DNA from: Pseudanabaena sp. BC1403
GTDB lineage: Bacteria > Cyanobacteriota > Cyanobacteriia > Pseudanabaenales > Pseudanabaenaceae
Direction: 5' to 3'
Assembly (NCBI RefSeq): GCF_002914585.1
Contig: NZ_PDDM01000010.1
Coordinates: 62,001 to 126,000 of the forward strand
DNA: 64,000 nt
Both the position numbers and the translations under genes were made by a program. Positions 23,198-41,371 of the stretch are shown here, in pieces (the stretch's first letter is position 1; every line of letters starts with the position of its first letter). A model generated the notes under the pieces. That model ran no database searches and was not told the DNA's origin. It was given only the letters and a program-made list of their open reading frames with translations.

Positions 23198-26100
23198 ATG
23201 TGTAAATCAATTATGGCTAGTAGCGATCGCTTTCCTACAATCAACGGCTACCAACTAGATCAGCAAATTTATGCTGGTAGCAGAACAATTGTCTATCGAG
23301 GCATATGCATAGCTGATAGTCAGTCTGTGGTGCTGAAAATGCCAAGAAGAGATCGCCCCACACCTCAAGATCTGCTGCGATTGCGGAACCACTACACGAT
23401 CGCCAAAAAACTGAATTTTGCAGGAATAGTCCAGACCATATCTTTAGAAAACTATGGTAATGGATTGGTTCTAGTCATGCCCGATGAGGGATATATCGCT
23501 CTCTCAGATTATATTTTAGCTAATCCTCTCAGCCAAATCGAGGTTTTGGCGATCGCGCTCCAACTTGCGACGATTCTTGAAGAAATCTATCGCCATCGCG
23601 TAATTCATAAAGATATCAAACCCAGCAACATCCTAATTGACCTAAATACTAAGCAGATCAAACTAACAGATTTTGGACTGGCGACATTACTACCCCAAGA
23701 AACTCAAGAGATCGTTGGCAGCAATGTCTTAGAAGGGACACTCGCATATATGTCTCCTGAACAAACAGGACGAATGAATCGGGGGGTAGACTATCGCTGC
23801 GACTTTTACTCACTAGGAGTAACTTTATTTGAACTATTGACGGGTCAATTGCCATTTAAGTCAGATGATCCCTTAGAAATCGTGCATTGTCATCTTGCTA
23901 AGCCAGCACCACTAGTAAGCGAGTTCAATCCAGAGATCCCAGAGGCGATCGCCCAAATTGTCTTTAAACTAATGGCAAAAAATGCCGAGGATCGTTACCA
24001 AAACGCATTGGGGTTAAAGCATGATCTCGAAGCCTGTCTGAATCAGCTTAACCAAACAGGAACCATTTCAGAGTTTGCTATCGGCACAAGAGATCTTAGC
24101 GATCGCTTCACCATCCCCGAAAAACTCTATGGTCGAAAAAGAGAGGTTGATCAACTGTTGGAGGCATTCGATCGAGTTGCCACAGGCAGTACCGAAATGA
24201 TGTTAGTCGCAGGTTTTTCCGGGATTGGCAAAACTACCATAATCAATGAAGTTCATAAACCTATTACTAAGCAAAGAGGCTATTTCATTAAGGGTAAATA
24301 TGATCAATTTCAGCGGAATATTCCTTTTTCTGCTTTTGTTCAAGCTTTCCGAGATTTGATGGGGCAATTGCTCTCAGAAAGTGATGCTCAACTGCAAACA
24401 TGGAAAGCTAAAATTCTGGAAGTGGTGGGTGATAATGGGCAAGTTTTAATTGATGTGATTCCCGAACTGGAACTGTTTATTGGCAAACAACCACCAGCCC
24501 CAGAACTATCAGGAACTGCCGCCCAAAATCGCTTCAATCTGTTAATGCAGTACTTTATCAAAGTATTTACCAGCCAAGAGCATCCTTTAGTGATGTTTAT
24601 TGATGACTTGCAGTGGTCAGATTCTGCCTCTCAGAACTTACTGAAATTGTTGATGCAGGATACTAAGCATTTGTTGTTTTTGGGTGCTTATCGAGACAAT
24701 GAGGTTTCACCAGTTCATCCATTTATATTGACAGTAAATGAAATCATCAAAGCCGAAGCTATAGTGCATACAATGACACTACAAGCATTAAGTTTGGAAG
24801 ATACAAATCAATTAGTGGCTGATACATTGAATTGTGAATTGCCCCTAGCTCAACCATTAACAAAATTGGTGTACCAAAAAACCCAAGGAAATCCTTTTTT
24901 TGCGACTCAATTCCTTAAATCATTACATCAAGATCAGCTAATTAAATTTGATGTTAATTTAGGATATTGGCAATGTGATATAGCTGAAGTAAAAGCCCAA
25001 GCATTTACAGATGATGTTGTGGATTTTATGAATTCACAATTGCAAAAACTACCACCTATAACGCAGCACATATTGCAGTTGGCAGCTTGTATTGGCAACT
25101 CTTTTGATTTAGATACTTTAGCTATGGTTTCAGAGCAAACAGTCACGGAAACATCAGATGCTTTGTGGGAAACATTGCAAGAAGGATTGATTTTACCGAC
25201 TAATGATGTTTATAAATTTTATATCGGGAAAGAAGGTCAAGTATTCACACAAAAAAATCAAGAAAGCGTTAGATATAAGTTTCTGCACGATCGTGTCCAA
25301 CAGGCTGCTTATTTACTAATTTCAGAAGACAAAAAGCAGGAAACCCATTACCAGATTGGACAATCGCTATTGCGTCATACATCCCCAGAAAAACAGAAAG
25401 AAAATATTTTTGATATCGTTAGTCATTTGAATATAGCCAGAGAGTTAATTACTACCAAATCACAAAGATGTGAATTAGCGCAGCTGAACCTTGTTGCTGG
25501 AGAAAAAGCCCTTACTGCCACGGCTTATAGTGCGGCTGCTAAATATTTTCATAATGGAATTAAGGCTCTAGATGTTGATAGTTGGCAATGTGAATATCAG
25601 CTGACACTATCTCTTTATAAATCTGCAATTAAGGCGGAATATCTGAATATTAACTTTGCCGAGGCTCAAACTTTAGCAGATTTTACTTTAGAACATACAA
25701 CTAGCCTACTCGATCGAGTCCAAATTTATGAGCTGCAAATGCAAATGTATATGGCTCAGTCAGAAATGCCAAAAGCACTGGCTGTAGGAGTTTTGGCTCT
25801 GGAGATGCTGGGCGTAGACTTAAACAATTCTCTTGTCTCTTCAGCAATTCAACTACCAAAACTATCCTCTATAGAATCATTACCATTTATGCAAGATGCT
25901 CATCAACTTGCAATTATGCGGATCCTGATGGCAATTTTTGCGCCAGCCTATACAACCCAACCAGAATTACTATCGCCGATCGTCTTAACGATGATTGACC
26001 TCAGTTTAAGGCAGGGACATTCCTCGCTGACTGCCTTTGCCTATGTATTTTATGGGATATTTTTGTGTGGTTTTGAGAAAGATTTAGATAAAGGATATTA

Positions 26101-29100
26101 CTCAGGTTTACTAGCCTTAAAAGTCCTAGAAAGATTTTCTGCTAGAGAGTTGGAGTGTAAAGTTAATAATTTATTTAATGTTTTTATCAGACCGTGGAAA
26201 GAACCTCTTATGGATACCATCGAACCACTAGAAAGAGCTAGTCAAGATGGTTTTGAAATGGGAGATATTGAGTATGCTAGTTATGCAACTGCCCATTGCT
26301 GTACTTATCGCTTTCTGGCTGGAGAAACCTTAGAAGAGGTACAACAAAAGCAAAATATTGCCCTTGAGATTTTGCAGCCAATTAAACAAGAGCACTCTCT
26401 TGGCAACGCTCAAATTTGGCAACAACTTGTTTCTAATTTGTTGGGAGATGTCACGGAGCTAAGGCAATTGTCAGGGGAATATTTTGATGAAACTGAACTT
26501 CTATCTGTTTATTGTGCAGGGAACGATCGCTCCCTACCGTTTACAGCCTACTTGGCTAAATCTATTCTCAACTATTTATTTGCAGATTATTTGATGGCAG
26601 TGACATCAGCACTCAAGGCAGCAGACTATGCTGAGGCTGCGATTGGGATAACCGTGGGGATTCACAACTTCTATTATTCTCTTGCCCTATTAGCCCAGTG
26701 CCTTGATTTACAAGCATCAGAAAACAGAAGTACCTCAACTATTCATCAACAATGTCAATCCCTGCTAGACCAAGTAGAAATCAATCAAAAAATCATGGAA
26801 GTATGGGTTGGTCACGCTCCGAAAAACTTTGCCCATAAATTTGATTTGGTAGCAGCAGAAAAATGTCGAGTATTAGGACAAAAAGCTGAGGCTATGGAGC
26901 TATATGACAAGGCGATCGCTGGAGCAAAAAACCACCAATATATCCAAGAACAAGCCCTAGCTAACGAATTAGCCGCTAAATTCTTTCTTGCTTGGGGCAA
27001 AGAGAAAGTCGCTCAAGTCTATATGCAAGAGGCGTATTATGGCTATGTAAGCTGGGGCGCAATCGCCAAAGTCACCGACCTCGAAAATCGCTATCCCCAA
27101 CTTCTCGCGCCTATTCTTCGAGACTCTCTTGGCTCTTTCCAGAAAAAAACTACAAGTTCCTCTGGTAGCACCTCTGAAGCAATCGATTTAGCGACTCTAC
27201 TAAAAGCATCTCAAGCAATTTCAGAAGAGATAGAGCTTTCAAAGCTCTTAGAGGCGCTCCTAAATATTGCCAATATTAATTCTGGAGCCGATAAATGCGT
27301 TTTATTGTTGCAATCAGAACCAGAGTTGCAAATTGCTGCTCTCGTGGAATCTGGACAACCTTCGCAAATCTTGCCCTCTCCCATATCCTTAGAACATAGT
27401 GAGGATATGGCGATTTCTATCGTCAATCAGGTCAAACATAGTTTAGAACCCATAGTTTTGAGTGATGCACGACAAGATTCCCGATTTGCAAGCGATCGCT
27501 ACATCCTCAAATATCGACCTAAAAGCGTTTTGTGTATGCCTATTCTGAAACAAGGCAAGTTAATCGGGATTTTATATCTAGAAAATAGCTTGACCATAGG
27601 AGCATTTACCAGCGATCGCCTTGAAGTGCTAAACCTAATTTGTTCTCAAGCTGCAATTTCCTTGGAAAATGCCCAACTCTATCAAACACTGTATGAGAGT
27701 GAAAATAAATTCAGAAGGCTAGTGGAAGGAGCCAATGACATGATCTGGGCTGCAAATTCCGACGGCATATTTACCTATCTCTCTCCCCAATTTCAGACCA
27801 TGTTTGGGTTTCCCATTGATGAATGGGTAGGACAATTCCTTGCGAGTTTGATTCATCCTGATGACTTGGGAAAAACTGCTGCGGCAGCTAAACTTTCCTT
27901 AGAGAGATTAGAAAATATAGCTGGTTTAGAGTTTCGCCACTTATGTCAAGACGGTAGTTATCTATGGGTAATGGTGAATATAACACCCGTCACAGATAAT
28001 GCAGGTAAAGCGATCGGGCTACAAGGCATTTTGCGGGATATCAGCGATCGCAAAAACCTAGAAAGAGAACAAGCCCGTTTGTTGGGAATTCTTGAAGCAT
28101 CATCAGACTATATTGGTACTGCCAGTCCAGATGGTGAAATTACTTGGGCAAACCAAAGATTACGCCAATTTTTAAACCTTGAGCAAAACGAATCATTGGC
28201 AGGTTATCAAATACAAGATTGTCATCCTCAATGGGTTCCGAATCTACTTTATCAAGAAGCAATCCCTCAAGCAATTCAACAAGGTTATTGGACTGGAGAA
28301 ACAGCATTATTGACTCCAGAAGGACAAGACATTCCTGTATCACAAGTTTTGATGGTACATAAAGCCCAAACAGGCGAACTGGAATACCTCTCAACGATTA
28401 TGCGTGATATCAGTGTGCAAAAAAGAACAGAGGCAGCTTTACAAGCATCCGAATCAGAACTACGCAGCTTATTTATGGGGATGGATGATGTTGTCTTTGT
28501 GGTAGATCGAACTGGAACATATCTCAAGGTCGCCCCAACGAATGCAGACAAGCTTTACTTATCTCCTGATATACTCATTGGCAAAAGTATTCAAGAGATT
28601 TTCCCGCCCGAACAATCTGCGCAATTTCTATCAGTAATTTGGAACACTCTCGACAAGCAGCAAACTCAAGAGCTTGAATATAGCTTATTGATCCAAGATA
28701 TGGAATTTTGGTTTAGTGCAAGATGTTCTCCCTTGACTGAGCAATCTGTCATTTGGGTGGCTCGCGATATCAACGATCGCAAAAAAGCTGAAGAGGATAT
28801 GCGAGATAGCGCAGAACGCCTGCGTCTTGCACTAATGGCTGCGAATCAGGGACTATACGACCTCAATCTGCAAACTGGCGAAGCGATCGTCAGCCCTGAA
28901 TATGCCACTATGCTGGGGTACGAGCCAGCCGAATTTCATGAAACAAACGCCAAGTGGATCGAACGGCTGCACCCAGACGATCTAGAGAGAGTTGCAGGTA
29001 CTTATCGGGCATATGTGAATGGAGAAATTGCCAATTACATCGTAGAATTTCGACAACGCACTAAAAACGGTGACTGGAAATGGATTCTCTCCCTAGGCAA

Positions 29101-30280
29101 AGTTGTCGAACGGGACGAGCTTGGGCAACCCTTACGGATGTTGGGAACTCATACAGACATCAGCGATCGCAAAGCTGCGGAAGCACTGCTCCAACAACAA
29201 GCCCAACAACTCGAAGAATATGCCCAGACCTTAGAACAGAGAGTAGAAGAGCGCACCCAAGAACTTTCGCAGGCATTATCCAATCTCCAATCTACGCAAG
29301 CAGAACTGATTCATTCCGAAAAGATGGCAGTACTAGGGCAACTCACTGCCAGCGTCGCCCACGAGATCAATACACCACTAGGGGTGATTCGCGCAGCAAC
29401 AGGCAATATTGTCTCGGCAAGCAATGTCTCTCTTCAGCAATTGCCCCAACTCATGCAAAGCTTGACTTCTCAACAACAAGTAGAGTTTATAGCTCTGGTG
29501 AATGTAGCAATTCAGAAACCCTACTCCCTATGTACCAAAGAAGAGCGACAACTGAGGCAACAACTGCAAAGCGAGCTAGCCATCCAAGGTATTGCTGATG
29601 CTAGTAGCATCGCGAATCAACTCAGTCAGATGCAACTGGGTTCGGATCTGCACCTGTATCAATCGATTCTGCAATCCCCGAACTGTTATGACATTTTGCA
29701 GGTAGCTCACAAGCTGGTATTGCAACATCAAAGCACCAGCAGTATTCAACAGGAAGTAGACCGTGCCGCAAAGATCGTGTTTGCGCTCAAAACCTATACT
29801 CACCGTAGCAAAGCTGGCGAGAAAAGTCTTGCCCAAATTAGCGATGGCATTGAGGTAGCTCTAACGCTCTATCAAAGCCGACTGAAACAAGGCATTGAGG
29901 TGATCCGTAAATATCAAGAAGTTCCCGATATTTTCTGCGACCCAGATGAACTCACGCAAGTCTGGATAAATTTAATTGACAATGCGATCTATGCGATCGG
30001 TCAGCAAGGTACATTAGAAATTTCTATCGCACAGCAAGGAGAATTTGTAGTTGTAGAACTCACTAATTCGGGCGATGAAATTCCCATTAAGATACAGTCA
30101 CATATTTTTGATCCATTTTTCACGACTAAGCCTAGGGGAGAAGGTAGTGGACTAGGCTTAGATATTGTGAGGCAAATTGTCCAAAGACAGGGAGGAGAGA
30201 TCCGAATGCAGAGTCAGCCTAATAACACTACTTTCATAGTGCTGTTGCCCTTACCGATGGTCACTCGAGGACAGCTATGA
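23198..30280 (+). CDS. giant Ser/Thr kinase - AAA ATPase - GAF - PAS x4 - histidine kinase
   Basis: This 2360-residue signalling protein combines two kinase types. Domains in order: Ser/Thr kinase (about 15-280) with VVLK lysine, catalytic HKDIKPSNI (about 136), DFG (about 158) and MSPEQ. Its glycine loop is poor (AGSRTIVYRG). An AAA_16-type ATPase follows, with Walker A GFSGIGKTT (about 338) and Walker B FIDDLQWSD (about 467). A long helical TPR-like region runs about 560-1320, then GAF (about 1330-1490), four PAS domains (about 1505-1995) and a coiled coil. The histidine kinase has H2055 in SVAHEINTPLG and an ATPase domain with NLIDNA and GEGSGLGLDIV. A helical insert of roughly 120 residues separates H-box and N-box. 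It is cytoplasmic; no membrane helices are seen. A GAAGGGAG ribosome site supports ATG 23198, though ATG 23213 is possible. This architecture is known in cyanobacteria as trifunctional kinases; the signal is unknown. Confidence 0.92.
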   Translation: MCKSIMASSDRFPTINGYQLDQQIYAGSRTIVYRGICIADSQSVVLKMPRRDRPTPQDLLRLRNHYTIAKKLNFAGIVQTISLENYGNGLVLVMPDEGYIALSDYILANPLSQIEVLAIALQLATILEEIYRHRVIHKDIKPSNILIDLNTKQIKLTDFGLATLLPQETQEIVGSNVLEGTLAYMSPEQTGRMNRGVDYRCDFYSLGVTLFELLTGQLPFKSDDPLEIVHCHLAKPAPLVSEFNPEIPEAIAQIVFKLMAKNAEDRYQNALGLKHDLEACLNQLNQTGTISEFAIGTRDLSDRFTIPEKLYGRKREVDQLLEAFDRVATGSTEMMLVAGFSGIGKTTIINEVHKPITKQRGYFIKGKYDQFQRNIPFSAFVQAFRDLMGQLLSESDAQLQTWKAKILEVVGDNGQVLIDVIPELELFIGKQPPAPELSGTAAQNRFNLLMQYFIKVFTSQEHPLVMFIDDLQWSDSASQNLLKLLMQDTKHLLFLGAYRDNEVSPVHPFILTVNEIIKAEAIVHTMTLQALSLEDTNQLVADTLNCELPLAQPLTKLVYQKTQGNPFFATQFLKSLHQDQLIKFDVNLGYWQCDIAEVKAQAFTDDVVDFMNSQLQKLPPITQHILQLAACIGNSFDLDTLAMVSEQTVTETSDALWETLQEGLILPTNDVYKFYIGKEGQVFTQKNQESVRYKFLHDRVQQAAYLLISEDKKQETHYQIGQSLLRHTSPEKQKENIFDIVSHLNIARELITTKSQRCELAQLNLVAGEKALTATAYSAAAKYFHNGIKALDVDSWQCEYQLTLSLYKSAIKAEYLNINFAEAQTLADFTLEHTTSLLDRVQIYELQMQMYMAQSEMPKALAVGVLALEMLGVDLNNSLVSSAIQLPKLSSIESLPFMQDAHQLAIMRILMAIFAPAYTTQPELLSPIVLTMIDLSLRQGHSSLTAFAYVFYGIFLCGFEKDLDKGYYSGLLALKVLERFSARELECKVNNLFNVFIRPWKEPLMDTIEPLERASQDGFEMGDIEYASYATAHCCTYRFLAGETLEEVQQKQNIALEILQPIKQEHSLGNAQIWQQLVSNLLGDVTELRQLSGEYFDETELLSVYCAGNDRSLPFTAYLAKSILNYLFADYLMAVTSALKAADYAEAAIGITVGIHNFYYSLALLAQCLDLQASENRSTSTIHQQCQSLLDQVEINQKIMEVWVGHAPKNFAHKFDLVAAEKCRVLGQKAEAMELYDKAIAGAKNHQYIQEQALANELAAKFFLAWGKEKVAQVYMQEAYYGYVSWGAIAKVTDLENRYPQLLAPILRDSLGSFQKKTTSSSGSTSEAIDLATLLKASQAISEEIELSKLLEALLNIANINSGADKCVLLLQSEPELQIAALVESGQPSQILPSPISLEHSEDMAISIVNQVKHSLEPIVLSDARQDSRFASDRYILKYRPKSVLCMPILKQGKLIGILYLENSLTIGAFTSDRLEVLNLICSQAAISLENAQLYQTLYESENKFRRLVEGANDMIWAANSDGIFTYLSPQFQTMFGFPIDEWVGQFLASLIHPDDLGKTAAAAKLSLERLENIAGLEFRHLCQDGSYLWVMVNITPVTDNAGKAIGLQGILRDISDRKNLEREQARLLGILEASSDYIGTASPDGEITWANQRLRQFLNLEQNESLAGYQIQDCHPQWVPNLLYQEAIPQAIQQGYWTGETALLTPEGQDIPVSQVLMVHKAQTGELEYLSTIMRDISVQKRTEAALQASESELRSLFMGMDDVVFVVDRTGTYLKVAPTNADKLYLSPDILIGKSIQEIFPPEQSAQFLSVIWNTLDKQQTQELEYSLLIQDMEFWFSARCSPLTEQSVIWVARDINDRKKAEEDMRDSAERLRLALMAANQGLYDLNLQTGEAIVSPEYATMLGYEPAEFHETNAKWIERLHPDDLERVAGTYRAYVNGEIANYIVEFRQRTKNGDWKWILSLGKVVERDELGQPLRMLGTHTDISDRKAAEALLQQQAQQLEEYAQTLEQRVEERTQELSQALSNLQSTQAELIHSEKMAVLGQLTASVAHEINTPLGVIRAATGNIVSASNVSLQQLPQLMQSLTSQQQVEFIALVNVAIQKPYSLCTKEERQLRQQLQSELAIQGIADASSIANQLSQMQLGSDLHLYQSILQSPNCYDILQVAHKLVLQHQSTSSIQQEVDRAAKIVFALKTYTHRSKAGEKSLAQISDGIEVALTLYQSRLKQGIEVIRKYQEVPDIFCDPDELTQVWINLIDNAIYAIGQQGTLEISIAQQGEFVVVELTNSGDEIPIKIQSHIFDPFFTTKPRGEGSGLGLDIVRQIVQRQGGEIRMQSQPNNTTFIVLLPLPMVTRGQL

Positions 30281-33200
30281 TCCAGACAACTGTAAACATT
30301 GGCGATCGCTTTCCTACAATCAACGGCTACCAACTAGATCAGCAAATTTATGCTGGTAATAGAACATTTGTCTATCGAGGCATACGCTTAGCCGATGGGT
30401 TGCCCGTTGTGTTGAAAACGTTGACAAGCGATCGCCCTACACCTCAAGATCTGCTGCGATTGCGGAACCACTTCACGATCGCCAAAAAACTGAATTTTGC
30501 AGGAATAGTCCAGACCATATCTTTAGAAAACTATGGTAATGGATTGGTTCTAGTCATGCCCGATGAGGGATATATCGCTCTCTCAGATTATATTTTAGCT
30601 AATCCTCTCAGCCAAATCGAGGTTTTGGCGATCGCGCTCCAAATTGCGACGATTCTAGATGAACTGTATCTTCAGCGAGTGATCCACAAAGATATCAAAC
30701 CCAGCAATATCCTAATTCATCCCATTACTAAGCAGATTAAGGTAACTGATTTTGGTTTAGCGACATTACTACCCCACGAGACGCAGACGCTAATTAGTGC
30801 AAATATTTTAGAAGGAACCCTCGCATACATGTCTCCCGAACAGACTGGACGGATGAATCGGGGGATTGACTATCGCAGTGACTTTTATGCTCTAGGTGTG
30901 ACTTTATTTGAACTATTCACAGGACAATTGCCATTTCGTTCAGACGATCCCTTGGAAATAGTACATTGTCATATTGCTAAATTAGCACCATTAGTAAGTG
31001 AATTCAAGTCAGAGATCCCAGATACAATCACACAAATCGTCGCCAAGCTGATGGCAAAGAATGCCGAAGATCGCTATCAGAGTGCGTTGGGATTAAAGTA
31101 TGACCTAGAAATCTGCCTAAATCAACTTAAACAGACAGGAATCATTATACCGTTTGAGATTGCGACAAGAGATATTAGCGATCGCTTCACTATTCCCGAA
31201 AAACTGTACGGACGAGAGACAGAAGTAGCCAGTCTCCTGTCCACATTTGACCGAGTATCACAAGGCAGTAGCGAAATGATGCTAGTGGCAGGTTTCTCAG
31301 GTATCGGTAAAACCTCTGTAGTAAACGAAGTTCACAAACCAATTGTCAGACAACATGGCCATTTTATTAAGGGCAAGTTCGATCAGTTTCAGCGCAATAT
31401 TCCCTTTAGTGCTTTTGTGCAGGCTTTCCGCGACTTGATGGGGCAGTTACAATCAGAGTCAGATCTACAGCTACAAACATGGAGAGATCGCATTCTCGAA
31501 GTGACTGGTGAAAATGGACAGATTTTGATCGAGGTGATTCCTGAACTAGAAAATATTATTGGCAATCAACTACCAGCGCCAGAGCTATCAGGCAATGCCT
31601 CTCAAAATCGCTTCAATCTATTGATTCGGAAGTTTGTTCAAGTCTTTACCACTGCCGAAAATCCCTTAGTTTTATTTCTGGATGATTTGCAATGGGCAGA
31701 TCTAGCTTCCTTAAAATTATTGCAACTATTGATGCAGGATACGGGACATCTATTGGTGTTGGGTGCTTATCGCGATAACGAGGTCTCACCTGTGCATCCG
31801 TTGATGTTGACAGTGGATGAGATCGTTAAGGCGGGAGCAACGGTAAATACGATTTCCTTACCACCTTTGAAGCAAGAGGATCTAAATCAGTTGGTGGCAG
31901 ACTCCTTGATTTGCGATTTGTCCATTGCACAGTTGTTAACCGAATTGGTTTATGAAAAGACTAAAGGTTATCCTTTCTTTGCTAGGCAGTTCCTCAAAGC
32001 GTTATATGAGGATGGTTTGATTACCTTTAATTGGAATGGGCGGTCTTGGCAATGGGATTTTTCTCAAATAGCTTTTGCCATTAGCGATGATGTGGTGGAG
32101 TTTCTGGCACGGCAATTGCAGAAGTTGCCTATAGAAACACAGGATATCCTCAAAATAGCAGCTTGTATTAGTGCACAGTTTGATTTGCAGACCTTAGCGA
32201 TCGCTTTCCAACAATCCCTAGAAAATACCGCAAAAGCATTATGGAAAGCATTACAGGAAGGTTTAATTATTCCAACGACTGAAGCCTATAAGTTCTTTAC
32301 CCAATCTGATACGAGTTCTATTTTGCAAACTGATGTGAATGCAACTTATAAATTCCTGCACGATCGCATTCAACAGGCAGCCTATTCACTGATTCCCGAA
32401 TCTCAAAAAGAGTTAGTACATCTCGATATTGGTAGACTGCTGCTAAATCGTACATCTAGCGAAGAGCAGGAGTTGCAACTGTTCCATATTGTTAATCATC
32501 TTAACCGTGGCATATCGCTCATTGATGATAGAAAAGAAAGGGAATCTTTAGTTTATCTCAACTGGCGGGCTGCCAAAAAAGCGCGAACCTCCTCAGCTTA
32601 CGAAGCAGCGACAAGCTATCTAAATATGGGATTGGAGCTTTTAGATGCTCAATGTTGGCAAAATCAGTACAGTCTGACACTAAGTTTACATCAACTGGCT
32701 GCTGAGATTGCATATCTGTCTGGGGAATATACTCAGATGGAAATTCTGATTGCGAGAGCATTACAACAGACTAAAAATCAGTTGGATCGGGCAAAATTAT
32801 ATGAGATTCAGATTTTAGCTCTAGTAGCTAAAAATCAAGCCCATGAAGCAATCTCCTATGCTCGTCAGATTTTGACTAACTTTGGTGTTCAACTTCCTAA
32901 GAAAACATCCAAACTGCGAACGATCATCGGATTTTTTACAACGGTCTATCTGATGATTGGCACTAGTCCTGAGGATTTGCTATCACTGCCTGCTATGTCA
33001 AATCCCTATAAATTAGCAATTTGCAATCTCTTTAATGCCATTGGTGCGGCAGCCCAAAGCAGTTTATCCGAGATTCTTCCATTTATGACTTTTAAGGGCA
33101 TTTCTCTATATCTCCGTTATGGTAATGTTCCTAAATCATCGATGGCATATACAGTCTATGCTTTTTTACTCTGTGAGAAGCTTGGACAAGTAGATAAAGG

Positions 33201-36200
33201 GTATGCCATCGGAAAAGCCGCGATCGCTCTATGTCACCAAACCGCATCCAAGGAAGCCTTGGCTCCTACTTTATTTCTCTGGACTCGTTTTATTTCTTAT
33301 CGTAAGGAGCACCTAAAAAGTTCATTACCACTACTGATGGAAGCATATCAAGTGAGTTTGGAGGTGGGTGATAATGAGTATGCTGCTTATAGTCTCTGTG
33401 TATATTTCACGCAATCCTATTGGATTAGCCCTAGTCTTGTGGATTTGCAAAGGGACGCGATCGCTAGTCTCCCTACTTTGCAGAAACTTCAGCAAACTTC
33501 GATGACAGATATGCATAATCTTAACTGCCAGATTTTGGAAAACCTCATAACTAAACCCGACGATGTTTGTCAAATTACTGGACGTTTTTTTGATGAGACT
33601 GCGATATCTAAAAGCGATCGCCAACTGCAAGTTTATGCAAGCTTACGCAAACTTCAGCTTGCTTTTTTGTTCTATCGATACCCGTTAGCTATGGAACAAA
33701 TTACGATCATCGAAGCCCTGATCGGCATAATTGATGGAACCTTTGTTAAAACGCTTTTCTATTTTTATGATGCTCTCATCAGATTAGCGCAGTATCCCTA
33801 CCTATCAAAAAAGCAACAAAGGGCTTACCTAACTAAAGTACGCGCTACTCAAAAGTATCTCGCGAGATTCGCTAAATCTGCTCAGATGAATTATCAACAC
33901 AAGGTCGTATTGATAGAAGCCGAATATCTGCGCGTTTTAGGAAAATTAAGTCAAGCGAGAGATTTGTATGATCGCGCGATCGCTGGAGCCAAAGAAAATG
34001 GCTACGTCCAAGAAGAAGCCCTCGCCAATGAACTCGCTGCGAAGTTCTATCTCGATTGGGGAAAAGAGAAAATCGCTCAAGTATACATGATTGACGCATA
34101 TTATGGTTATATGCGTTGGGGAGCAACAGCCAAAGTTACCGACATAGAAAATCGTTATCCCCAACTGCTCACGCCTATTCTTCAGAAAGCTACTCCCCTT
34201 GGTTCTATCAATACAAGATCTAGTAACTCCTCTAATAGCAACTCTGAAGCAATAGATCTAGCGACACTTCTCAAAGCCTCTCAAGCAATTTCTGAAGAAG
34301 TTGAACTTGACAAGCTTTTGATAACGCTCTTAAATATTGTGATCGCTAATGCTGGTGGAGATAAATGTGTCATACTGCTGCTAGTTGCACAGGAATTACA
34401 AGTCGAGGCTCTAGCGAAATATGGACAGACATCGCAAATCCTGTCATCACCGATATCTCTAGAATCAAGCGAAGATGTGGCGGTTGGTTTGGTAAATCAG
34501 GTCAAGCGCAGTTTAGAGCCATTAGTTGTGAATGATGCGCGTGTAGATGCTCAATTTGCAGGCGATCGCTACATTATCCAACATCAGCCCAAAAGCATTC
34601 TATGTACACCCATTCTCAAGCAAGGGCAGTTAGTGGGGATTTTATATCTAGAAAATAGTTTGACCGTGGGAGCGTTTACAAGCGATCGCATTGAAGTCTT
34701 AAATCTAATTTGCTCTCAAGCCGCGATTTCCATCGAAAATGCCCGACTCTATCAAACCCTCCAACAGAGTGAAAATAAGTTTCGAGCCTTTGTGGAAAAT
34801 GTCAACGATATCATTTATGCGATTACTCCAGAGGGAGCCTTTAGCTATCTGTCTCCACAGTTTAAAGACATGCTGGGCTACGATGTCAGCGAATTTTTGA
34901 ATCAGTCTTATGACGGATTAATCCATCCAGATGATATCTCCGCCATAATTGCCTCGCACCAAAAACTCTTTGAAACTGGGCAGAAACAATCTGGGCTGGA
35001 GTTTCGGTTAAAACATAAGAATAGTGAATGGGTATGGATGACTTGTAATAATGCCCCGATCTTTGATGACCAAGGTCGTGTAATTGGGTTGCGTGGAATT
35101 GCGCGAGATGTTAGCGAAAGAAAGCGACTGGAAGCCGAGCATCATCAGACCGAAGTCGCTCTGGCTGAGAGTGAGAGAAAATTCAGAAGGCTAGTGGAAA
35201 GAGCCAACGACATGATTTGGTCTGCACGGGCAGACAGCACCTTGACTTATCTCTCTCCCCAATTTCAGACCATGTTTGGACTATCTCCGTCTGAGTGGGT
35301 AGGACAATCCTTTGCGAAACTGATTCATCCCGACGACTTAGAAAGGGCTATTGCACCTGCTAGATTGGCACTGGAGCAAGATGAGAATCAGCAAAACATA
35401 GAGTTTCGGCATTTATGTCGAGACGGTAGCTATCTATGGGTAACACTGAACATGACCTCCATCAAAGATGATGAAGGCAATGCGATCGGACTACAAGGTA
35501 TTGTGAGAGATATCAGCGATCGCAAACAGACAGAAACCATCTTGAGGCATTATGAGCGGATGATCTCATCCTCTCCAGATGGGATGGCTCTAGTTGACCG
35601 AAACTATACCTATCGATTGGTCAATCAAATCTATTTAGATCGTAATGGTCAGAAATTGGAAGATATTATTGGACACTCGATTCCTGATTTCAATGGTGAA
35701 GATACGTTCCAAAATTTGATTAAACCAAGGTTAGATCGATGTCTTGCGGGTGAAACGATTCGATATGAGGATTGGTTTCACTACAAAAAATTAGGTGATC
35801 GCTTTATTCGAGTTACCTATTCTCCATATTTTGAGGAGAACGGTGTGATCGTAGGCGTAGTCGTTAATACCCGAGACGATACAGAGCGTCGAAGGGTAGA
35901 GATATCTCAAAAACAAAATGAAGAAATGTTTCGCGCCACTTTTGAGCAAGCTGCTGTGGGAATGGCACAGGCAAACTTAAATGGACAATTTGTTAAACTC
36001 AACCAGAAATTTTGCGATATTATTGGCTACACTGAAGCCGAGCTAATCAATAAATCCTTTGAGGAAATTACATACCTTGATGACATTGCGATAGACAAGG
36101 CAAATATTAGGAAACTGCTGGCAGAAGAGAGTAAGTCATTTTCCATAGAAAAGCGATACATTCACAAAGATAGTCGCATTATTTGGATAAACCTTAATGT

Positions 36201-38511
36201 ATCGCTAATATATAACTTGAATGGAGAGCCAGAATACTTTATTGGGGTCGTTCAAGATATTAGCGATCGCAAACAAGCAGAACAAAGCCTCCAAGCTGAG
36301 AGAATGCGGTTGCAAATTGCCCTAGAAGCTTCCGAAATGGGTACTTGGGAGTCCAATATGGATACAGGCTATTGGTCAGAACGGACAGAAGCGATTTTTG
36401 GCTTTGCCCCTGGTACATTCTCTGGAGATCGCGAGGCTTTTCTGAAACTGGTTTATGCCGAAGACCAAGCGCGAGTATTTAGCGCCCTTGCTCATAGTTT
36501 TACCACCCAATCCCCCTACAAAGTCGAATATCGAATTAACCACCCTCATGGAGAAATCCGTTGGGTGGCTGTGAATGGGAAAGTAGCTCAAAATGAAGAT
36601 GGCACTGGCGGGCGTATCATTGGCGTAGCAGTTGATATTACCGAGCGCAAACAAGCCGAGGAAGCTATTCGCTTAAACCAAGAACAATTGCAACTAGCTC
36701 TTGAAGGCTCAGGCGATGGCTTGTGGGATTGGAATATTGTGACTGGTGAAGCCTACATGAGTCCCCGATGGCTGGGAATGTTGGGCTACGAGGTTGGCGA
36801 ACTTCCAGATCGTGTCGATACTTGGAGTCAATTATTCCATCCTAACGATCTACCTACAGTGATGGACTTACTCAATGCCCACCTGCAAGACAACACAGTT
36901 CCCTATCGGGTTGAATATCGAGCCCTTTCTAAAACTGGAGAGTGGAAATGGATGGCGAACTACGGCAAAGTAGTTGCCTTTGATGCCGATGGCAAGCCTT
37001 TACGGATGGTTGGTTTGCAGAGAGATATCAGCGATCGCAAACAAGCCGAACTTATGTTACAGCGGCAGCTAACCGCCGTTGAGGCATCATTGGATGGCAT
37101 TGCCATTCTCAAAAACGACAATTACATTTACTTAAATGAAGCCCACGCCCAAATCTTTGGTTACGACTCACCCGCAGAGTTGATCACCAAAACTTGGCGC
37201 GATATGTATATGCCTGAAGAGGTTCGCAAGTTTGAACAAGATATATTTCCGATCTTGATGGAGCAAAAACACTGGCGTGGCGAAGCGATCGCAAAGCGTA
37301 AAGATGGCACAACCTTTGATGAAGAACTGTCACTGATCATTTCAGGGAATGGCGATCTGATCTGCGTTTGTCGCGATATCAGCGATCGCAAAGCCAATGA
37401 AGCACTGCTCCAACATCAAGCACAACAACTCGAAGAGTATACCCAGACCCTAGAACTGAGAGTGGAAAAACGAACCCTAGAACTTTCGCAGGCATTATCC
37501 AATCTCCAATCTACACAAGCAGGACTGATTCAATCCGAAAAGATGGCAGCATTAGGTCAACTTACCGCCAGCGTCGCCCACGAGATCAATACGCCTCTAG
37601 GTGTGATTCGCGCGGCCACAGGTAATATCGTCGCAGCAAGCAGTATATCTCTTCAGCAATTGCCTCAACTCATGCAAAGTCTGACTTCTCAACAACAGGA
37701 GGAGTTCCTGAGTTTGGTGAATGCCGCCCTTCAGAAGGTTCAGCCTCTATCTACCAAAGATGAGCGGCAAATGCGGCGACAACTACAAAGCGAACTAACA
37801 GCACAAGGTATTACCGAAGCCGCCAGCATTGCGACTCAACTCAGTCAGATGCAACTGTCTTCTCATCTTGAGCTTTATCAATCCATTCTGCAAGCCCCAA
37901 ACTGTTATGACATTTTACAGGTGGCATACAAGCTAGTATTGCAACATCAAAGCACCCATAGCATTCAGCAGGAAGTAGACCGCGCTGCTAAGATCGTATT
38001 TGCTCTCAAATCCTATAGCCATCAAAGTCAAAATAATGATGAGAAGATTCTTGCCCAAATCAGCGATGGTATTGAAGTCGCCCTGACGCTTTATCATAAT
38101 CGCCTCAAACATGGAATTGAGGTGATCCGCAATTACCAAGATGTTCCTGATGTTCTCTGCGACCCAGATGCACTAACTCAGGTATGGGTAAATTTGATTG
38201 ACAACTCCATCTATGCTATGGGACAACAGGGCAGGCTAGAAATTACTGTAACGCAGGAACATGAGTATGTGGTTGTGACGATCACAGATTCTGGCGGTGG
38301 AATTTCTTCAGAAACGCAAGCAAACATTTTCGAGCCGTTTGTAACGACTAAACCGAGAGGAGAAGGCAGTGGATTAGGATTAGATATTGTCCGACAGATC
38401 GTGCGAAAGCATAATGGCGACATCCAATTTCGGAGTCAACCTAGCCAAACTACTTTCATCGTTCTGATACCAATCATTAAATCGCAAGTTTTATCCAAAC
38501 AAAGTATCTAA
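30277..38511 (+). CDS. giant Ser/Thr kinase - AAA ATPase - GAF - PAS x7 - histidine kinase (paralogue)
   Basis: This 2744-residue paralogue of the preceding protein overlaps it by four bases (ATGA), so the two are translationally coupled. The same domain order is present. Ser/Thr kinase (about 8-280) has VVLK, HKDIKPSNI, TDFG and MSPEQ. The ATPase has Walker A GFSGIGKTS (about 339) and Walker B FLDDLQWAD. A TPR-like helical middle and GAF (about 1324-1490) follow. About seven PAS domains are present instead of four (about 1498-2372), most ending in the ISDRK type linker. A coiled coil and a histidine kinase with H2435 in SVAHEINTPLGVIR and GSGLGLDIVRQIV complete it. The extra PAS units account for most of the length difference. 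Its first 120 codons include a 179-bp stretch identical to the upstream gene. Both proteins may heterodimerise through their kinase ends, which is an inference. Confidence 0.92.
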   Translation: MIQTTVNIGDRFPTINGYQLDQQIYAGNRTFVYRGIRLADGLPVVLKTLTSDRPTPQDLLRLRNHFTIAKKLNFAGIVQTISLENYGNGLVLVMPDEGYIALSDYILANPLSQIEVLAIALQIATILDELYLQRVIHKDIKPSNILIHPITKQIKVTDFGLATLLPHETQTLISANILEGTLAYMSPEQTGRMNRGIDYRSDFYALGVTLFELFTGQLPFRSDDPLEIVHCHIAKLAPLVSEFKSEIPDTITQIVAKLMAKNAEDRYQSALGLKYDLEICLNQLKQTGIIIPFEIATRDISDRFTIPEKLYGRETEVASLLSTFDRVSQGSSEMMLVAGFSGIGKTSVVNEVHKPIVRQHGHFIKGKFDQFQRNIPFSAFVQAFRDLMGQLQSESDLQLQTWRDRILEVTGENGQILIEVIPELENIIGNQLPAPELSGNASQNRFNLLIRKFVQVFTTAENPLVLFLDDLQWADLASLKLLQLLMQDTGHLLVLGAYRDNEVSPVHPLMLTVDEIVKAGATVNTISLPPLKQEDLNQLVADSLICDLSIAQLLTELVYEKTKGYPFFARQFLKALYEDGLITFNWNGRSWQWDFSQIAFAISDDVVEFLARQLQKLPIETQDILKIAACISAQFDLQTLAIAFQQSLENTAKALWKALQEGLIIPTTEAYKFFTQSDTSSILQTDVNATYKFLHDRIQQAAYSLIPESQKELVHLDIGRLLLNRTSSEEQELQLFHIVNHLNRGISLIDDRKERESLVYLNWRAAKKARTSSAYEAATSYLNMGLELLDAQCWQNQYSLTLSLHQLAAEIAYLSGEYTQMEILIARALQQTKNQLDRAKLYEIQILALVAKNQAHEAISYARQILTNFGVQLPKKTSKLRTIIGFFTTVYLMIGTSPEDLLSLPAMSNPYKLAICNLFNAIGAAAQSSLSEILPFMTFKGISLYLRYGNVPKSSMAYTVYAFLLCEKLGQVDKGYAIGKAAIALCHQTASKEALAPTLFLWTRFISYRKEHLKSSLPLLMEAYQVSLEVGDNEYAAYSLCVYFTQSYWISPSLVDLQRDAIASLPTLQKLQQTSMTDMHNLNCQILENLITKPDDVCQITGRFFDETAISKSDRQLQVYASLRKLQLAFLFYRYPLAMEQITIIEALIGIIDGTFVKTLFYFYDALIRLAQYPYLSKKQQRAYLTKVRATQKYLARFAKSAQMNYQHKVVLIEAEYLRVLGKLSQARDLYDRAIAGAKENGYVQEEALANELAAKFYLDWGKEKIAQVYMIDAYYGYMRWGATAKVTDIENRYPQLLTPILQKATPLGSINTRSSNSSNSNSEAIDLATLLKASQAISEEVELDKLLITLLNIVIANAGGDKCVILLLVAQELQVEALAKYGQTSQILSSPISLESSEDVAVGLVNQVKRSLEPLVVNDARVDAQFAGDRYIIQHQPKSILCTPILKQGQLVGILYLENSLTVGAFTSDRIEVLNLICSQAAISIENARLYQTLQQSENKFRAFVENVNDIIYAITPEGAFSYLSPQFKDMLGYDVSEFLNQSYDGLIHPDDISAIIASHQKLFETGQKQSGLEFRLKHKNSEWVWMTCNNAPIFDDQGRVIGLRGIARDVSERKRLEAEHHQTEVALAESERKFRRLVERANDMIWSARADSTLTYLSPQFQTMFGLSPSEWVGQSFAKLIHPDDLERAIAPARLALEQDENQQNIEFRHLCRDGSYLWVTLNMTSIKDDEGNAIGLQGIVRDISDRKQTETILRHYERMISSSPDGMALVDRNYTYRLVNQIYLDRNGQKLEDIIGHSIPDFNGEDTFQNLIKPRLDRCLAGETIRYEDWFHYKKLGDRFIRVTYSPYFEENGVIVGVVVNTRDDTERRRVEISQKQNEEMFRATFEQAAVGMAQANLNGQFVKLNQKFCDIIGYTEAELINKSFEEITYLDDIAIDKANIRKLLAEESKSFSIEKRYIHKDSRIIWINLNVSLIYNLNGEPEYFIGVVQDISDRKQAEQSLQAERMRLQIALEASEMGTWESNMDTGYWSERTEAIFGFAPGTFSGDREAFLKLVYAEDQARVFSALAHSFTTQSPYKVEYRINHPHGEIRWVAVNGKVAQNEDGTGGRIIGVAVDITERKQAEEAIRLNQEQLQLALEGSGDGLWDWNIVTGEAYMSPRWLGMLGYEVGELPDRVDTWSQLFHPNDLPTVMDLLNAHLQDNTVPYRVEYRALSKTGEWKWMANYGKVVAFDADGKPLRMVGLQRDISDRKQAELMLQRQLTAVEASLDGIAILKNDNYIYLNEAHAQIFGYDSPAELITKTWRDMYMPEEVRKFEQDIFPILMEQKHWRGEAIAKRKDGTTFDEELSLIISGNGDLICVCRDISDRKANEALLQHQAQQLEEYTQTLELRVEKRTLELSQALSNLQSTQAGLIQSEKMAALGQLTASVAHEINTPLGVIRAATGNIVAASSISLQQLPQLMQSLTSQQQEEFLSLVNAALQKVQPLSTKDERQMRRQLQSELTAQGITEAASIATQLSQMQLSSHLELYQSILQAPNCYDILQVAYKLVLQHQSTHSIQQEVDRAAKIVFALKSYSHQSQNNDEKILAQISDGIEVALTLYHNRLKHGIEVIRNYQDVPDVLCDPDALTQVWVNLIDNSIYAMGQQGRLEITVTQEHEYVVVTITDSGGGISSETQANIFEPFVTTKPRGEGSGLGLDIVRQIVRKHNGDIQFRSQPSQTTFIVLIPIIKSQVLSKQSI

Positions 38512-40180: not shown

Positions 40181-41371
40181 ATGAATAACCTCACTATTAT
40201 TTGTGTTGACGATGAGCGTAATGTTCTTCTGATGCTTAGAAACCAGTTAATGCGTTTTTTCCCAGATTACAAAATTGAAATTGCAGAAAGTGGAGCTGAA
40301 GCATTAGAAGTTATTGAGGAGATTTTGTCTAATGGGTTTGATGTTGCTTTAGTAGTTGCTGATCAGATCATGCCAAAGATGAAAGGGGATGAGTTTTTGA
40401 TCGAACTCCATACTCGATATCCTGAGATTCTCAAGGTGATGCTGACAGGTCAAGCCAATGTTGAAGATATTGGTAATGTAGTCAATCGAGGTAATCTCTA
40501 TCGTTTTATATCTAAGCCATGGAACGAAACGGATTTGCAACTAACTGTATCGGAAGCCTTGCGGAAATTTCAGCAAGAGAAACAAATTATCAAGCATCAG
40601 TTAGCCCTAGAGCAAACTAATCTGGAGTTGATAGCGTTGAATAGGGATCTCGAAAGTGCTAATGTAGAACTCGCAAGGGTTTCCAAGCTCAAAGATGAGT
40701 TCCTCTCCATGATGAGCCATGAACTACGTACACCATTCACCTCTATCTTAGGGGTATCAGAATGTTTGCTTGATGAAGTTTATGGCACAATTAATCCGAG
40801 TCAAAAGAAAGCGATCGCCATTATCGAAAGTAGCAGTAATCATCTACTGAAATTGATTAATGATATTTTAGATATCTCAAAACTTATAGCAGGTATACTA
40901 AAGCTCAGTATCACATCTGTAGTGATTGCGGATTTGTGTGATTCAAGTATAGAGGCTGTGAAACAACAGGCTCTTAAAAAACAGATTCAAATTACGACAA
41001 ACTTGGCTCCAGATATAAAATCTATTGAAGTTGATCCGCTACGGATGAGACAAGTATTGATCAACTTACTCGATAATGCGGTCAAATTTACCCCCAATGG
41101 CGGTAGGGTGAGTTTGGATGTTTTGAAAATTAACTCTTGGATTTGTTTCTCAATTACTGATTCTGGGCTTGGCATTGCCACTAGCGATCAAAGTAAGCTA
41201 TTTCAGCCATTTGTTCAACTTGACAGTGGTCTCAACCGTAGCTACGAAGGGACAGGAATAGGACTTGCCATAGTGAAGCAAATCATCGAACTCCACAACG
41301 GTTATGTTGATTGCAGTAGTGAGATTGGTCAGGGCACTTGCTTTACTGTTCGCCTACCATCTATGTCTTGA
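40181..41371 (+). CDS. receiver-histidine kinase
   Basis: This 396-residue protein has an N-terminal receiver of the VADQIMP type (about residues 4-120: CVDDERNV, VVADQIMPKMKGDEF, VMLTGQA, SKPWNETDLQL). A coiled-coil linker (about 125-165) leads to a canonical HisKA domain with H180 in MMSHELRTPFTSILG and an ATPase domain (NLLDNAVKFTPNGG, DSGLGIA, YEGTGIGLAIVKQI). All phosphotransfer residues are intact. No sensory or membrane domain is present, so input probably comes through phosphorylation of the receiver by another kinase of the block. The receiver is highly similar to that of the next gene, and the leaders before the two ATGs also resemble each other, indicating a duplicated 5' end. It lies 90 bases after the preceding gene. 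Confidence 0.92.
   Translation: MNNLTIICVDDERNVLLMLRNQLMRFFPDYKIEIAESGAEALEVIEEILSNGFDVALVVADQIMPKMKGDEFLIELHTRYPEILKVMLTGQANVEDIGNVVNRGNLYRFISKPWNETDLQLTVSEALRKFQQEKQIIKHQLALEQTNLELIALNRDLESANVELARVSKLKDEFLSMMSHELRTPFTSILGVSECLLDEVYGTINPSQKKAIAIIESSSNHLLKLINDILDISKLIAGILKLSITSVVIADLCDSSIEAVKQQALKKQIQITTNLAPDIKSIEVDPLRMRQVLINLLDNAVKFTPNGGRVSLDVLKINSWICFSITDSGLGIATSDQSKLFQPFVQLDSGLNRSYEGTGIGLAIVKQIIELHNGYVDCSSEIGQGTCFTVRLPSMS

Follow-up and report, generated by a model that had tools for sequence, protein, structure and literature searches.

Two giant genes lie in tandem in a window of 64,000 nucleotides from Pseudanabaena sp. BC1403 (the whole stretch of DNA that was analysed), and they raise the question of what two such similar proteins, each with a kinase at either end, sense and to what they report. 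The original prediction was that they form a hetero-complex of fixed ratio, with one common kinase end and two different sensor loads.

The two giant kinases and their predicted middle segment

Both reading frames, P1 (2360 aa, 23198..30280) and P2 (2744 aa, 30277..38511), are open throughout, lie on the forward strand (as do all features given below) and overlap by four nucleotides (ATGA), as had been claimed; a more likely start for P1 is at 23213 (ATGGCTAGTAGC), matching the start of the relative in genome G008. Read from sequence, the domain order is Ser/Thr kinase (STK), STAND ATPase, TPR superhelix, GAF, PAS and histidine kinase (HK) tail. In P1, Pfam places the STK at aa 18-275 (23249..24022; PF00069, 1.2e-37, with its motifs), the AAA_16 STAND ATPase at aa 309-494 (24122..24679; PF13191, 1.5e-43, with a predicted model and Foldseek matches to STAND proteins) and the GAF domain at aa 1347-1489 (27236..27664; PF01590, 5.7e-16), followed by PAS domains at about aa 1500-2007 (27695..29218). 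The corresponding domains of P2 are the STK at aa 18-268 (30328..31080; PF00069, 5e-36), AAA_16 at aa 309-494 (31201..31758; PF13191, 1.6e-41), GAF at aa 1343-1486 (34303..34734; PF01590, 1.8e-16) and PAS domains at 34756..37431. Counted as TIGR00229 stretches, the PAS domains number four in P1 and seven in P2, in agreement with the earlier count by eye; a whole-protein scan gave three and seven, and the third PAS of P1 was confirmed when scanned alone.

HstK-type giant kinases were reportedly named in 2001. On their domain content, P1 and P2 are adjacent members of the published cyanobacterial dual-kinase family HstK/cbSTKIII: both carry an N-terminal STK with the catalytic Lys, HxD and DFG, a GAF domain between the STK and the histidine kinase, and C-terminal HisKA and HATPase_c. 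The family, which includes HstK/Alr2258 of Anabaena PCC 7120, likewise combines an N-terminal STK, GAF (with PAS in some members) and a C-terminal histidine kinase, and is multi-copy (PMC2176072). In the available portion of that survey, the STAND/TPR middle that P1 and P2 both have, and its exchange, go unmentioned ('AAA' has 0 occurrences), and the seven PAS domains of P2 exceed every cbSTKIII entry (PMC2176072).

The STK had been described as intact. The catalytic Lys, HKD and DFG are present in both proteins, but the presumed alpha-C Glu column, assigned by our own reading of the alignment (E in 41, Q in 24 and H in 12 of 77 members), holds His in both, and the kinase may be weak or inactive. 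The ATPase motifs stand as described (Walker A GFSGIGKT, Walker B FIDD/FLDD), with GxxGxGK and DD found in 77/77 aligned members, including P1 and P2. The poor glycine loop is indeed present in both proteins, but it is a trait of the whole family and not a peculiarity of the pair, the first Gly itself being kept in 43 of the 77 members and replaced by S in 30.

The statement that the two proteins differ mainly in PAS number was wrong: P1-P2 identity is 76% over aa 20-600 and 70% over aa 1240-1490, but falls to 29% over aa 780-1180. No Pfam match was obtained over 24680-27217 of P1. An AlphaFold model of P1 aa 300-1335 (pLDDT 85.1, pTM 0.72, from an alignment of 10 rows) predicts, as the overall fold, a helical-repeat sensor after the ATPase, with the TPR-like superhelix, the proposed sensor, at about aa 698-1300 (25289..27097; model residues 399-1000, most 10-residue blocks with pLDDT >80). 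The top Foldseek match is 6mfv (E 4.4e-12, TM 0.53 by target), followed by Apaf-1 (3e-8); CED-4 and plant resistosomes match less strongly. P1 resembles TPR-sensing STAND ATPases (6mfv), NLRs and Apaf-1 in its predicted fold and in having the sensor as the variable part, but in P1 the sensor is central, between the STK and the GAF-PAS-HK tail, and 6mfv is only moderately similar (TM 0.37 by query). From sequence and model together, the middle of P1 and P2 is assigned as the TPR superhelix of a STAND ATPase, and the main sensor difference between them is this TPR cassette, which the original prediction had overlooked.

Histidine kinase tails and the locus in relatives

The HK tail of P1 (aa 2031-2360, 29288..30277) comprises a DHp domain with inserted helices and a CA domain, as assigned from Pfam, alignment and model; that of P2 (37507..38490) is assigned from Pfam, alignment and tree. 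HATPase_c scores above its cut-off in both full proteins, whereas HisKA reaches 19.3 and 20.3 bits against a cut-off of 26.9, with only the start of the model matched; about 70 aa separate the two DHp helices. The P1 tail by itself does exceed the HisKA cut-off (28.4 bits), still through the first helix only. The predicted insertion in P1 has four helices (about aa 2091-2158, 29468..29671), and relatives can be aligned over its full length. It was not identified as a known domain: Pfam gave nothing convincing, and the 50 Foldseek matches listed were ordinary HK cores or catalytic domains. The claim of intact H/N/G boxes holds for the H-box and HATPase_c of both proteins but not for the G1-box, where Asp is kept in P2 (TDSGGGI) and replaced by Asn in P1 (TNSGDEI). 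The reading of the P1 HK as a decayed pseudokinase was rejected, as Asn is found in 13 of the 15 array-type HKs compared, P1 included.

Four further genes lie downstream. They encode a receiver-HK protein of 504 aa with its receiver Asp present (38576..40090; domain search and HK alignment), a second receiver-HK protein of 396 aa (40181..41371), a receiver-PAS-HK protein of 1142 aa (41609..45037) and a receiver-GGDEF-EAL protein of 580 aa (45285..47027), for which the degenerate GGDEF and present EAL motifs point to a phosphodiesterase. A counterpart of the 396-aa gene is present in each of the five mapped loci (our own and those of G008, G012, G020 and G022) and in G001, whose locus is split over contigs. 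At the G020 locus there is no EAL gene beside the first dual kinase and the receiver-HK gene, so a c-di-GMP output is not obligatory.

The HK tails were aligned in 26 rows, three from the window and 23 from 79 relative loci; L056, L068, L075 and L078 were omitted, and row ends trimmed by a few codons, where references ran across stop codons. In a tree of HK tails, those of P1 and P2 cluster with the HK of the 504-aa protein (99/98), and a grouping of the P2 tail with its N-terminal orthologues is rejected (AU 1.5e-66). Identity is 74% between the P1 and P2 tails and 74-75% between either and the 504-aa protein. On these comparisons, different heads within the array have had their HK tails exchanged or homogenised; shuffling of HisKA against the STK has been noted in the cyanobacterial kinase survey, as far as that source was available (PMC2176072).

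These data bear directly on the predicted hetero-complex, in which coupling would equalise the amounts of P1 and P2, their kinase ends would pair and their PAS loads would integrate two signals. The common kinase ends are borne out: besides the clustered tails, the STKs are each other's nearest rows (83% identity; SH-aLRT 88, unstarred), and at these identities mixed DHp dimers are plausible. Conservation of the pair as neighbours is found in part. A P2-type gene follows directly behind the first gene in G008 and G012, again with a four-nucleotide overlap (GTGA), but the G022 and G020 loci hold a single giant gene and that of G008 holds three (two in our own genome and in G012). Nor is the PAS number fixed for either gene position. 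First genes carry four (own genome), five (G008), three (G012), four (G020) and four (G022) PAS domains, and P2-type genes carry seven (own genome), one weak (G008 and G001) or none (G012, which has no room between GAF and HK). The HK tail occurs equally in the 504-aa gene and, among relatives, in receptor kinases of the Cache/HAMP and HAMP kinds, and therefore marks out no exclusive P1/P2 pair. With one to three giant genes per locus and PAS loads that vary at each position, an obligate complex of fixed ratio is not supported, and we regard it as unlikely.

Members of the family also lie side by side elsewhere: our own genome holds eight, including two tandem pairs, relatives hold one to five side by side, and one single-contig genome gave 26 matches. 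The literature search returned no account of the reason for so many HstK-type copies. Alr0709/Alr0710 of Anabaena PCC 7120 are adjacent, co-transcribed dual kinases with 75% similarity that are called a recent duplication in the portion of the survey available (PMC2176072). They resemble P1 and P2 as two neighbouring dual kinases; P1 and P2, which overlap by four nucleotides on the same strand, are a candidate transcription unit. Alr0709/Alr0710 combine GAF and HisKA without PAS in that source (PMC2176072), whereas P1 and P2 carry four and seven PAS domains. Control by NtcA and iron is a feature of Alr0709/Alr0710 and no more than a possibility for P1 and P2. The window holds 12 GTAN8TAC sites against 6.9 expected, one of them at -127, with the same sequence at -141 in G008; no such site lies within 400 bp of any listed ORF start in G012, G020 or G022 (where the start is annotated about 40 codons long), and NtcA control is kept as a lead only.

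An anti-phage role was also weighed, in which the STK-STAND half would act as a defence-like, NLR-type receptor and the HK tail as a by-stander or regulator. The predicted STAND fold with a variable TPR sensor is in keeping with it, and antiviral STAND proteins with variable sensors are described in the available part of one report (PMC10907252). Against it, the families listed for P1 and P2 are kinase, ATPase, GAF, PAS and HK domains, with no nuclease, protease or TIR family among them (Pfam, and a second scan listing the best-scoring 25 of 81 and 90 families), and all four genes that follow downstream belong to two-component and c-di-GMP signalling. We consider this reading improbable.

Exchange of the TPR segment among paralogues

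The low P1-P2 identity in the middle was traced by comparing 77 family members that had an uninterrupted frame and matches for STK, AAA and GAF. Both flanks are at least 68% identical in 104 of the 2926 pairs, and the middle of these pairs is 27-36% identical in 26 and 57-97% in 78, with none between; pairs in this and the following counts have members in common and cannot be treated as independent. Between species, one and the same locus can combine flanks of ~91% identity with a cassette of ~30%: flank/middle/flank identities of G020_1 are 91/30/92 with G022_1, 90/31/92 with G008_1 and 91/32/89 with G012_1. As a segment control, pairs with all other segments at least 65% identical were counted. 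TPR identity is below 40% in 4/71 such pairs, while values below 55% are absent for the STK (62 pairs), AAA (59), post-TPR (75) and GAF (59) segments, and segment 521-695 falls to 40-55% in 3/65.

In P1, a mosaic segment at aa 332-1230 (24191..26887; informative sites and AU tests) is akin to C47, a paralogue on another contig of the same genome with the same cassette type, and not to the syntenic first genes (informative sites versus G008_1: 269/47 inside, 24/166 outside; 0/5000 permutations). In P2, the cassette aa 709-1226 (32401..33954) is shared with G008_2 (versus G008_1: 209/34 inside, 91/157 outside; 0/5000 permutations); with P1 in place of G008_1 in the comparison, it spans aa 596-1260 (230/38 inside, 75/150 outside). 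For the trees and AU tests of these segments we selected 30 rows from the 77 aligned members, with test groups picked after the earlier comparisons. A grouping of P1 with C47 and G015C6 is rejected for the STK (p 2.5e-4) and for the right side (1.1e-5), and in the middle the groupings of P1 and of G020_1 with the syntenic first genes are rejected (4.4e-4 and 2.1e-6). Exchange is not limited to the middle, because the STK of G008_3 also differs from that of G008_1 (AU p 0.018).

The edges of the exchanged segment vary. The left edge lies at aa 307-332 in P1, ~700 in G020_1/G008_1/G008_3 and ~785 in G225/G134, and some pairs from a second cyanobacterial family show a gradual transition starting at about aa 400; the segment is therefore not a site-specific cassette. 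Between G008_1 and G008_3, a sharp edge adjoins an identical 1262-bp tract that ends at aa 703. The pattern recurs in the second family (74 members from 60 regions of a longer list), where TPR identity is below 55% in 12/45 pairs, against 0 of 26-28 for each other segment. When 188 aa of the P1 cassette were searched against 194 genomes from the phylum (E<=1e-30), matches came from 8/194 genomes and revealed no reservoir of free-standing cassettes, all 12 places lying in frames of 1807-2368 aa.

An alternative is that the middle is just an ordinary linker or scaffold that evolves fast under relaxed constraint. This would fit its conservation, which is lower than that of any other part across the family (pairwise identity averages 27-37% in 50-aa windows of aa 801-1200 and 35-64% in the other windows), and the 6/67 flank-matched second-family pairs with middles at 45-55%, by which the gap between cassette classes is not absolute. 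It is very improbable given the bimodal pairs of the first set, the AU rejections, the sharp edge beside the identical tract and the closeness of the P1 middle to G015C6 (75%) and C47 (66-86% per window), the flanks of C47 being more distant from P1 than the syntenic genes' flanks are. The sequence comparisons indicate instead that the central sensor piece has been swapped repeatedly between family members that share both kinase ends, comparable to the varied recognition parts of immune receptors; the TPR superhelix behaves like a unit passed between paralogues, with the kinase ends keeping the ancestry of the locus. The presumed recognition part is exchanged and the switch and effector parts are kept, but the P1 segment takes in most of the ATPase, and the HK tails are exchanged too.

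A possible receptor array with a local output

We favour, as the probable reading from sequence and model, a scheme in which P1 and P2 act as NLR-like receptor kinases: their swapped TPR sensors would report into a single local phosphorelay, at the end of which stands a c-di-GMP phosphodiesterase; ligand, activity and output are what we infer. The TPR segment would be the main recognition surface, and ligand binding would relieve STAND autoinhibition and lead to oligomerisation. STAND release may then activate the STK, the HK tail or both, with GAF and PAS adding inputs. Because their HK tails are of the same kind, the heads of the array would signal to the same neighbouring receivers, with the 396-aa and 1142-aa proteins as candidates, and the signal would pass on to the EAL phosphodiesterase and lower c-di-GMP. 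Tandem duplication with translational coupling would add heads to one output, and exchange would alter what each head senses.

Candida albicans Chk1 has the same plan as Mak2/Mak3 of S. pombe. The latter, in the part of the source available, resemble P1 and P2 in combining an N-terminal STK, central GAF and histidine kinase, and in being similar paralogues with overlapping function (PMC5383687). Mak2/Mak3 and Chk1 differ from P1 and P2 in being eukaryotic and in having a receiver domain, and the likeness is one of domain plan. The DGR-diversified STAND antigen sensors of multicellular bacteria also carry a diversified recognition part on a STAND protein; there, in the portion available, reverse-transcriptase mutagenesis acts on C-lectin domains (PMC10907252), whereas in P1 and P2 whole TPR segments appear to be exchanged. 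Our literature search (titles and abstract openings) found no description of TPR-segment exchange in dual kinases.

More tentatively, and with rather less confidence than the reading of P1 and P2 themselves, cyanobacteria might hold a large recombining repertoire of NLR-like receptor kinases. The TPR part would be swapped by homologous recombination between paralogues while the locus-specific HK tail is kept alike, such that any receptor newly formed feeds the two-component output that its neighbours use. Sensor swapping would thereby be connected to two-component signalling rather than to cell death. If the TPR segment is the recognition part, the natural chimeras, with the same locus and ends but a different middle, would give a direct route to the signal of each copy. 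They would also link the NLR principle, in which the switch is fixed and the sensor exchangeable, to bacterial two-component and c-di-GMP signalling.

The tandem pair and its family

The two open reading frames of the original prediction were borne out: P1 (23198–30280, 2360 aa) and P2 (30277–38511, 2744 aa) lie on one strand and overlap by 4 nt (ATGA). The true start of P1 is probably 23213, because the syntenic gene in G008, a relative of the genus, begins with the identical ATGGCTAGTAGC. Both proteins match the Pfam families Pkinase, AAA_16, GAF, PAS and HATPase_c, and the stretch of P1 from AAA_16 to GAF is without any Pfam family at E ≤ 0.1. The PAS count of four against seven likewise holds by TIGR00229 stretches (4 in P1, 7 in P2), while a whole-protein scan gives 3 and 7. 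Both Ser/Thr kinases (STK) retain their catalytic residues but carry His at the presumed alpha-C position (12 of 77 members do), and a 169-bp tract within the STK is identical between them. Upstream of P1, two inverted repeats were seen by eye (22900–22927 and ~23022–23069), and one of these is palindromic around GGGGCAATTCATGAATTGCCCC. An NtcA-like GTAN8TAC lies at 23071–23084, 114–127 bp 5′ of P1, with identical sequence in G008; no such site was found up to 400 bp from the listed starts of the relatives G012, G020 and G022.

P1 and P2 belong to the cyanobacterial dual kinases cbSTKIII, of which HstK (Alr2258) is the named member. The 2007 survey (PMC2176072) describes their plan (N-terminal STK, C-terminal His kinase and at least one GAF between), their abundance in filamentous nitrogen-fixing strains, HisKA–STK shuffling in the family, and Alr0709/Alr0710, two neighbouring dual kinases that are transcribed together. 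Neither the architecture nor a tandem pair is therefore new, and taken by itself the P1–P2 pair amounts to a tandem duplication of the ordinary kind within an established family. Matches at E ≤ 1e−100 were found in 31 of the 38 genomes searched, own included, and the own genome holds eight members, four of them forming two tandem pairs (in the window and on contig 3). The second pair (G000:C3:199058–209900; L007, L008) shows 91/76/89% identity (left flank/middle/right flank) and is also paired in G019 (L055). In another cyanobacterial family, 26 matches at E ≤ 1e−200, not all of them complete, fall in G134, a genome of a single contig, and runs of five neighbouring members, as read by eye from the table, lie on contigs of G230 and G228. 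Outside the cyanobacteria, dual kinases with a STAND middle and a histidine kinase (HK) tail of the kind seen here occur in records titled Thioploca and Desulfamplus (L082 4387–9891; L088 238–5934).

Exchange of the middle region

Sliding identities showed that proteins of the same locus can be ~90% identical on both sides of a middle that falls to ~30%. Across an alignment of 77 members (2926 pairs; flanks, P1 aa 20–600 and 1240–1490; middle, aa 780–1180), both flanks were at least 68% identical in 104 pairs, with the middle at 27–36% in 26, at 57–97% in 78 and at intermediate values in none (pairs share members). The clearest case is the giant gene G020_1 against the first genes of G022 (91/30/92), G008 (90/31/92) and G012 (91/32/89); P1 against P2 gives 76/29/70. 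The table, by our reading, holds six or more separate replacements, of which four are on this locus's backbone and two lie elsewhere. With every other segment held to at least 65% identity, 4 of 71 pairs had a TPR segment below 40% and 3 of 65 had aa 521–695 at 40–55%, whereas no pair fell below 55% for STK (62 pairs), AAA (59), post-TPR (75) or GAF (59). In a second family, also cyanobacterial, for which 15 genomes were searched, 60 regions fetched and 74 members analysed, the TPR segment was below 55% in 12 of 45 such pairs, and every non-TPR segment was the odd one in 0 of 26–28. In the 67 pairs whose two flanks reach 68% identity or more, the middle was below 45% in 27, at 45–55% in 6 and higher in 34, a less clean split than in the first set, with some left edges gradual; the clearest case (93/34/92) involves G134.

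Trees of three segments, built from 30 of the 77 members, conflict. In the STK tree, P1 joins P2 and the first genes of the syntenic loci; in the middle tree, it joins the own-genome contig-47 paralogue (C47) and its G015 relative (G015C6); in the right-segment tree, it returns to the syntenic first genes, at low support (73). AU tests, whose groups were named after earlier identity comparisons and are thus not blind, rejected P1+C47+G015C6 for the STK (p = 2.5e−4; P1 with the syntenic firsts not rejected, 0.49) and the right segment (1.1e−5); for the middle, they rejected the syntenic firsts with P1 (4.4e−4) and with G020_1 (2.1e−6). The third giant gene of G008 (G008_3) departs from the first genes in the STK as well (AU p = 0.018). 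A three-way site test delimited a C47-like segment in P1, aa 332–1230 (0 of 5000 permutations equally strong), with 269 sites for C47 and 47 for G008_1 inside it and 24 and 166 outside; the exchange in P1 therefore takes in the TPR part and most of the ATPase. In P2, the G008_2-like segment spans aa 709–1226 against G008_1 (209/34 inside, 91/157 outside) and aa 596–1260 against P1 (230/38 inside, 75/150 outside).

Left edges of the exchange vary (aa 307–332, ~700, ~785 or gradual), and right edges fall at ~aa 1200–1260, inside a conserved block (for example Ala 76/77, Tyr 75/77 and Glu 76/77). Giant genes 1 and 3 of G008 share 1262 identical bp up to aa 703, diverge in the middle, return to 100% amino acid identity at aa 1220–1259 and are 80–95% identical afterwards; the identical tract is provisional, G008 being a draft assembly of ~60 contigs. 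A site-specific enzyme would fit such edges less well than homologous recombination between conserved blocks.

The locus and its histidine kinase tails

Mapping in four congeneric relatives showed part of the locus to be conserved. In G008 and G012, a P2-type second gene overlaps the first by GTGA; G022 and G020 have one giant gene each. The G008 locus holds three giant genes and a Cache-HAMP kinase paired with a solute-binding protein, then receiver-HK, receiver-PAS-HK and receiver-GGDEF-EAL genes; in G012, two giant genes together with two pairs of solute-binding protein and kinase precede the same three receiver genes; G022 has one solute-binding/kinase pair beside its giant gene, and G020 the receiver-HK only. 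The number of giant genes at the locus therefore ranges from 1 to 3, and PAS number varies along with it: 4 in P1, 5, 3, 4 and 4 in the first genes of G008, G012, G020 and G022; 7 in P2, one weak match in the P2-type genes of G008 and G001 and none in that of G012; and none in G008_3. In G001, the same kinds of genes lie on several contigs. The 1142-aa receiver-PAS-HK is full length in 5 of 38 genomes (own included), with less complete matches in four more, and the array-type HK tail occurs at E ≤ 1e−110 at 23 places in 8 of 38. Pairs of a solute-binding protein and a Cache/HAMP or HAMP HK in the relatives' arrays (L044 6768–10402; L046 3930–7453) bear an HK tail of the same kind as the giant kinases. 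G020 has a second related array (L197 7402–12959), its dual kinase split in two frames (736 and 1174 aa).

Within the tail, Pfam HisKA aligns with the first DHp helix only, because an insertion of ~70 residues, predicted to form four helices, separates the two (P1 29468–29671). At least 79 loci match the tail, and those alignable over its full length include records titled as cyanobacteria, Bacteroidales and Flavobacteriales, Desulfobacterales, Leptospiraceae and Beggiatoa relatives. Also among the matches listed, this HK subfamily with extra residues between the DHp helices extends over several phyla (window 29468–29671, 38576–40090; L057–L134); the insert is variable, since most of the weakest matches listed are ~50 residues shorter.

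Unlike proteins in one array have like HKs. The HKs of P1, P2 and the 504-aa protein are 74–75% identical, and those of G008 genes 2 and 3 and the Cache kinase 87–88%, while G008_2 and G012_2, ~95% identical in their N-terminal part, share 71% in the HK. The HK tree rejects both the N-terminal grouping P2+G008_2+G012_2+G001_1 (p = 1.5e−66) and G008_2+G012_2 (p = 4.5e−5).

Predicted fold, output and interpretation

AlphaFold modelled P1 aa 300–1335 (10-row alignment; pLDDT 85.1, pTM 0.72) as an ATPase followed, after a short mixed stretch, by ~600 residues of helical hairpins. The best solved structure in Foldseek was the TPR-sensor STAND protein 6mfv (E 4.4e−12; TM 0.53 by target, 0.37 by query), followed by Apaf-1 and, more weakly, by CED-4, origin-recognition AAA+ proteins and plant resistosomes.

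Gene order and motifs suggest that one locus-type HK tail is borne by heads with differing TPR, GAF and PAS sensors. The receiver-HK is the best candidate partner of the giant kinase, because G020 retains only this gene beside it. The neighbouring receivers retain the phospho-acceptor Asp, and the last gene (45285–47027, receiver-GGDEF-EAL) combines a degenerate GGDEF (ESNEF) with intact-looking EAL motifs; the predicted output of the array would thus be c-di-GMP phosphodiesterase activity.

The explanation we favour overall, with somewhat better than even confidence, is one of NLR-type dual kinases with swapped TPR sensors, a shared HK tail and a local c-di-GMP output; we place it no higher because the segment exchanged in P1 extends over most of the ATPase and exchange edges are inconstant. 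Judged from sequences and models, the family appears built like NLR receptors, with the TPR region exchanged between paralogues and the HK tail alike within a locus. This build, the TPR exchange and the likeness of HK tails within a locus are the unexpected part, unnoticed in the original prediction. As characterised antiviral STAND proteins sense through their variable repeat domain (PMC10907252), an exchanged repeat domain would most simply mean an exchanged specificity.
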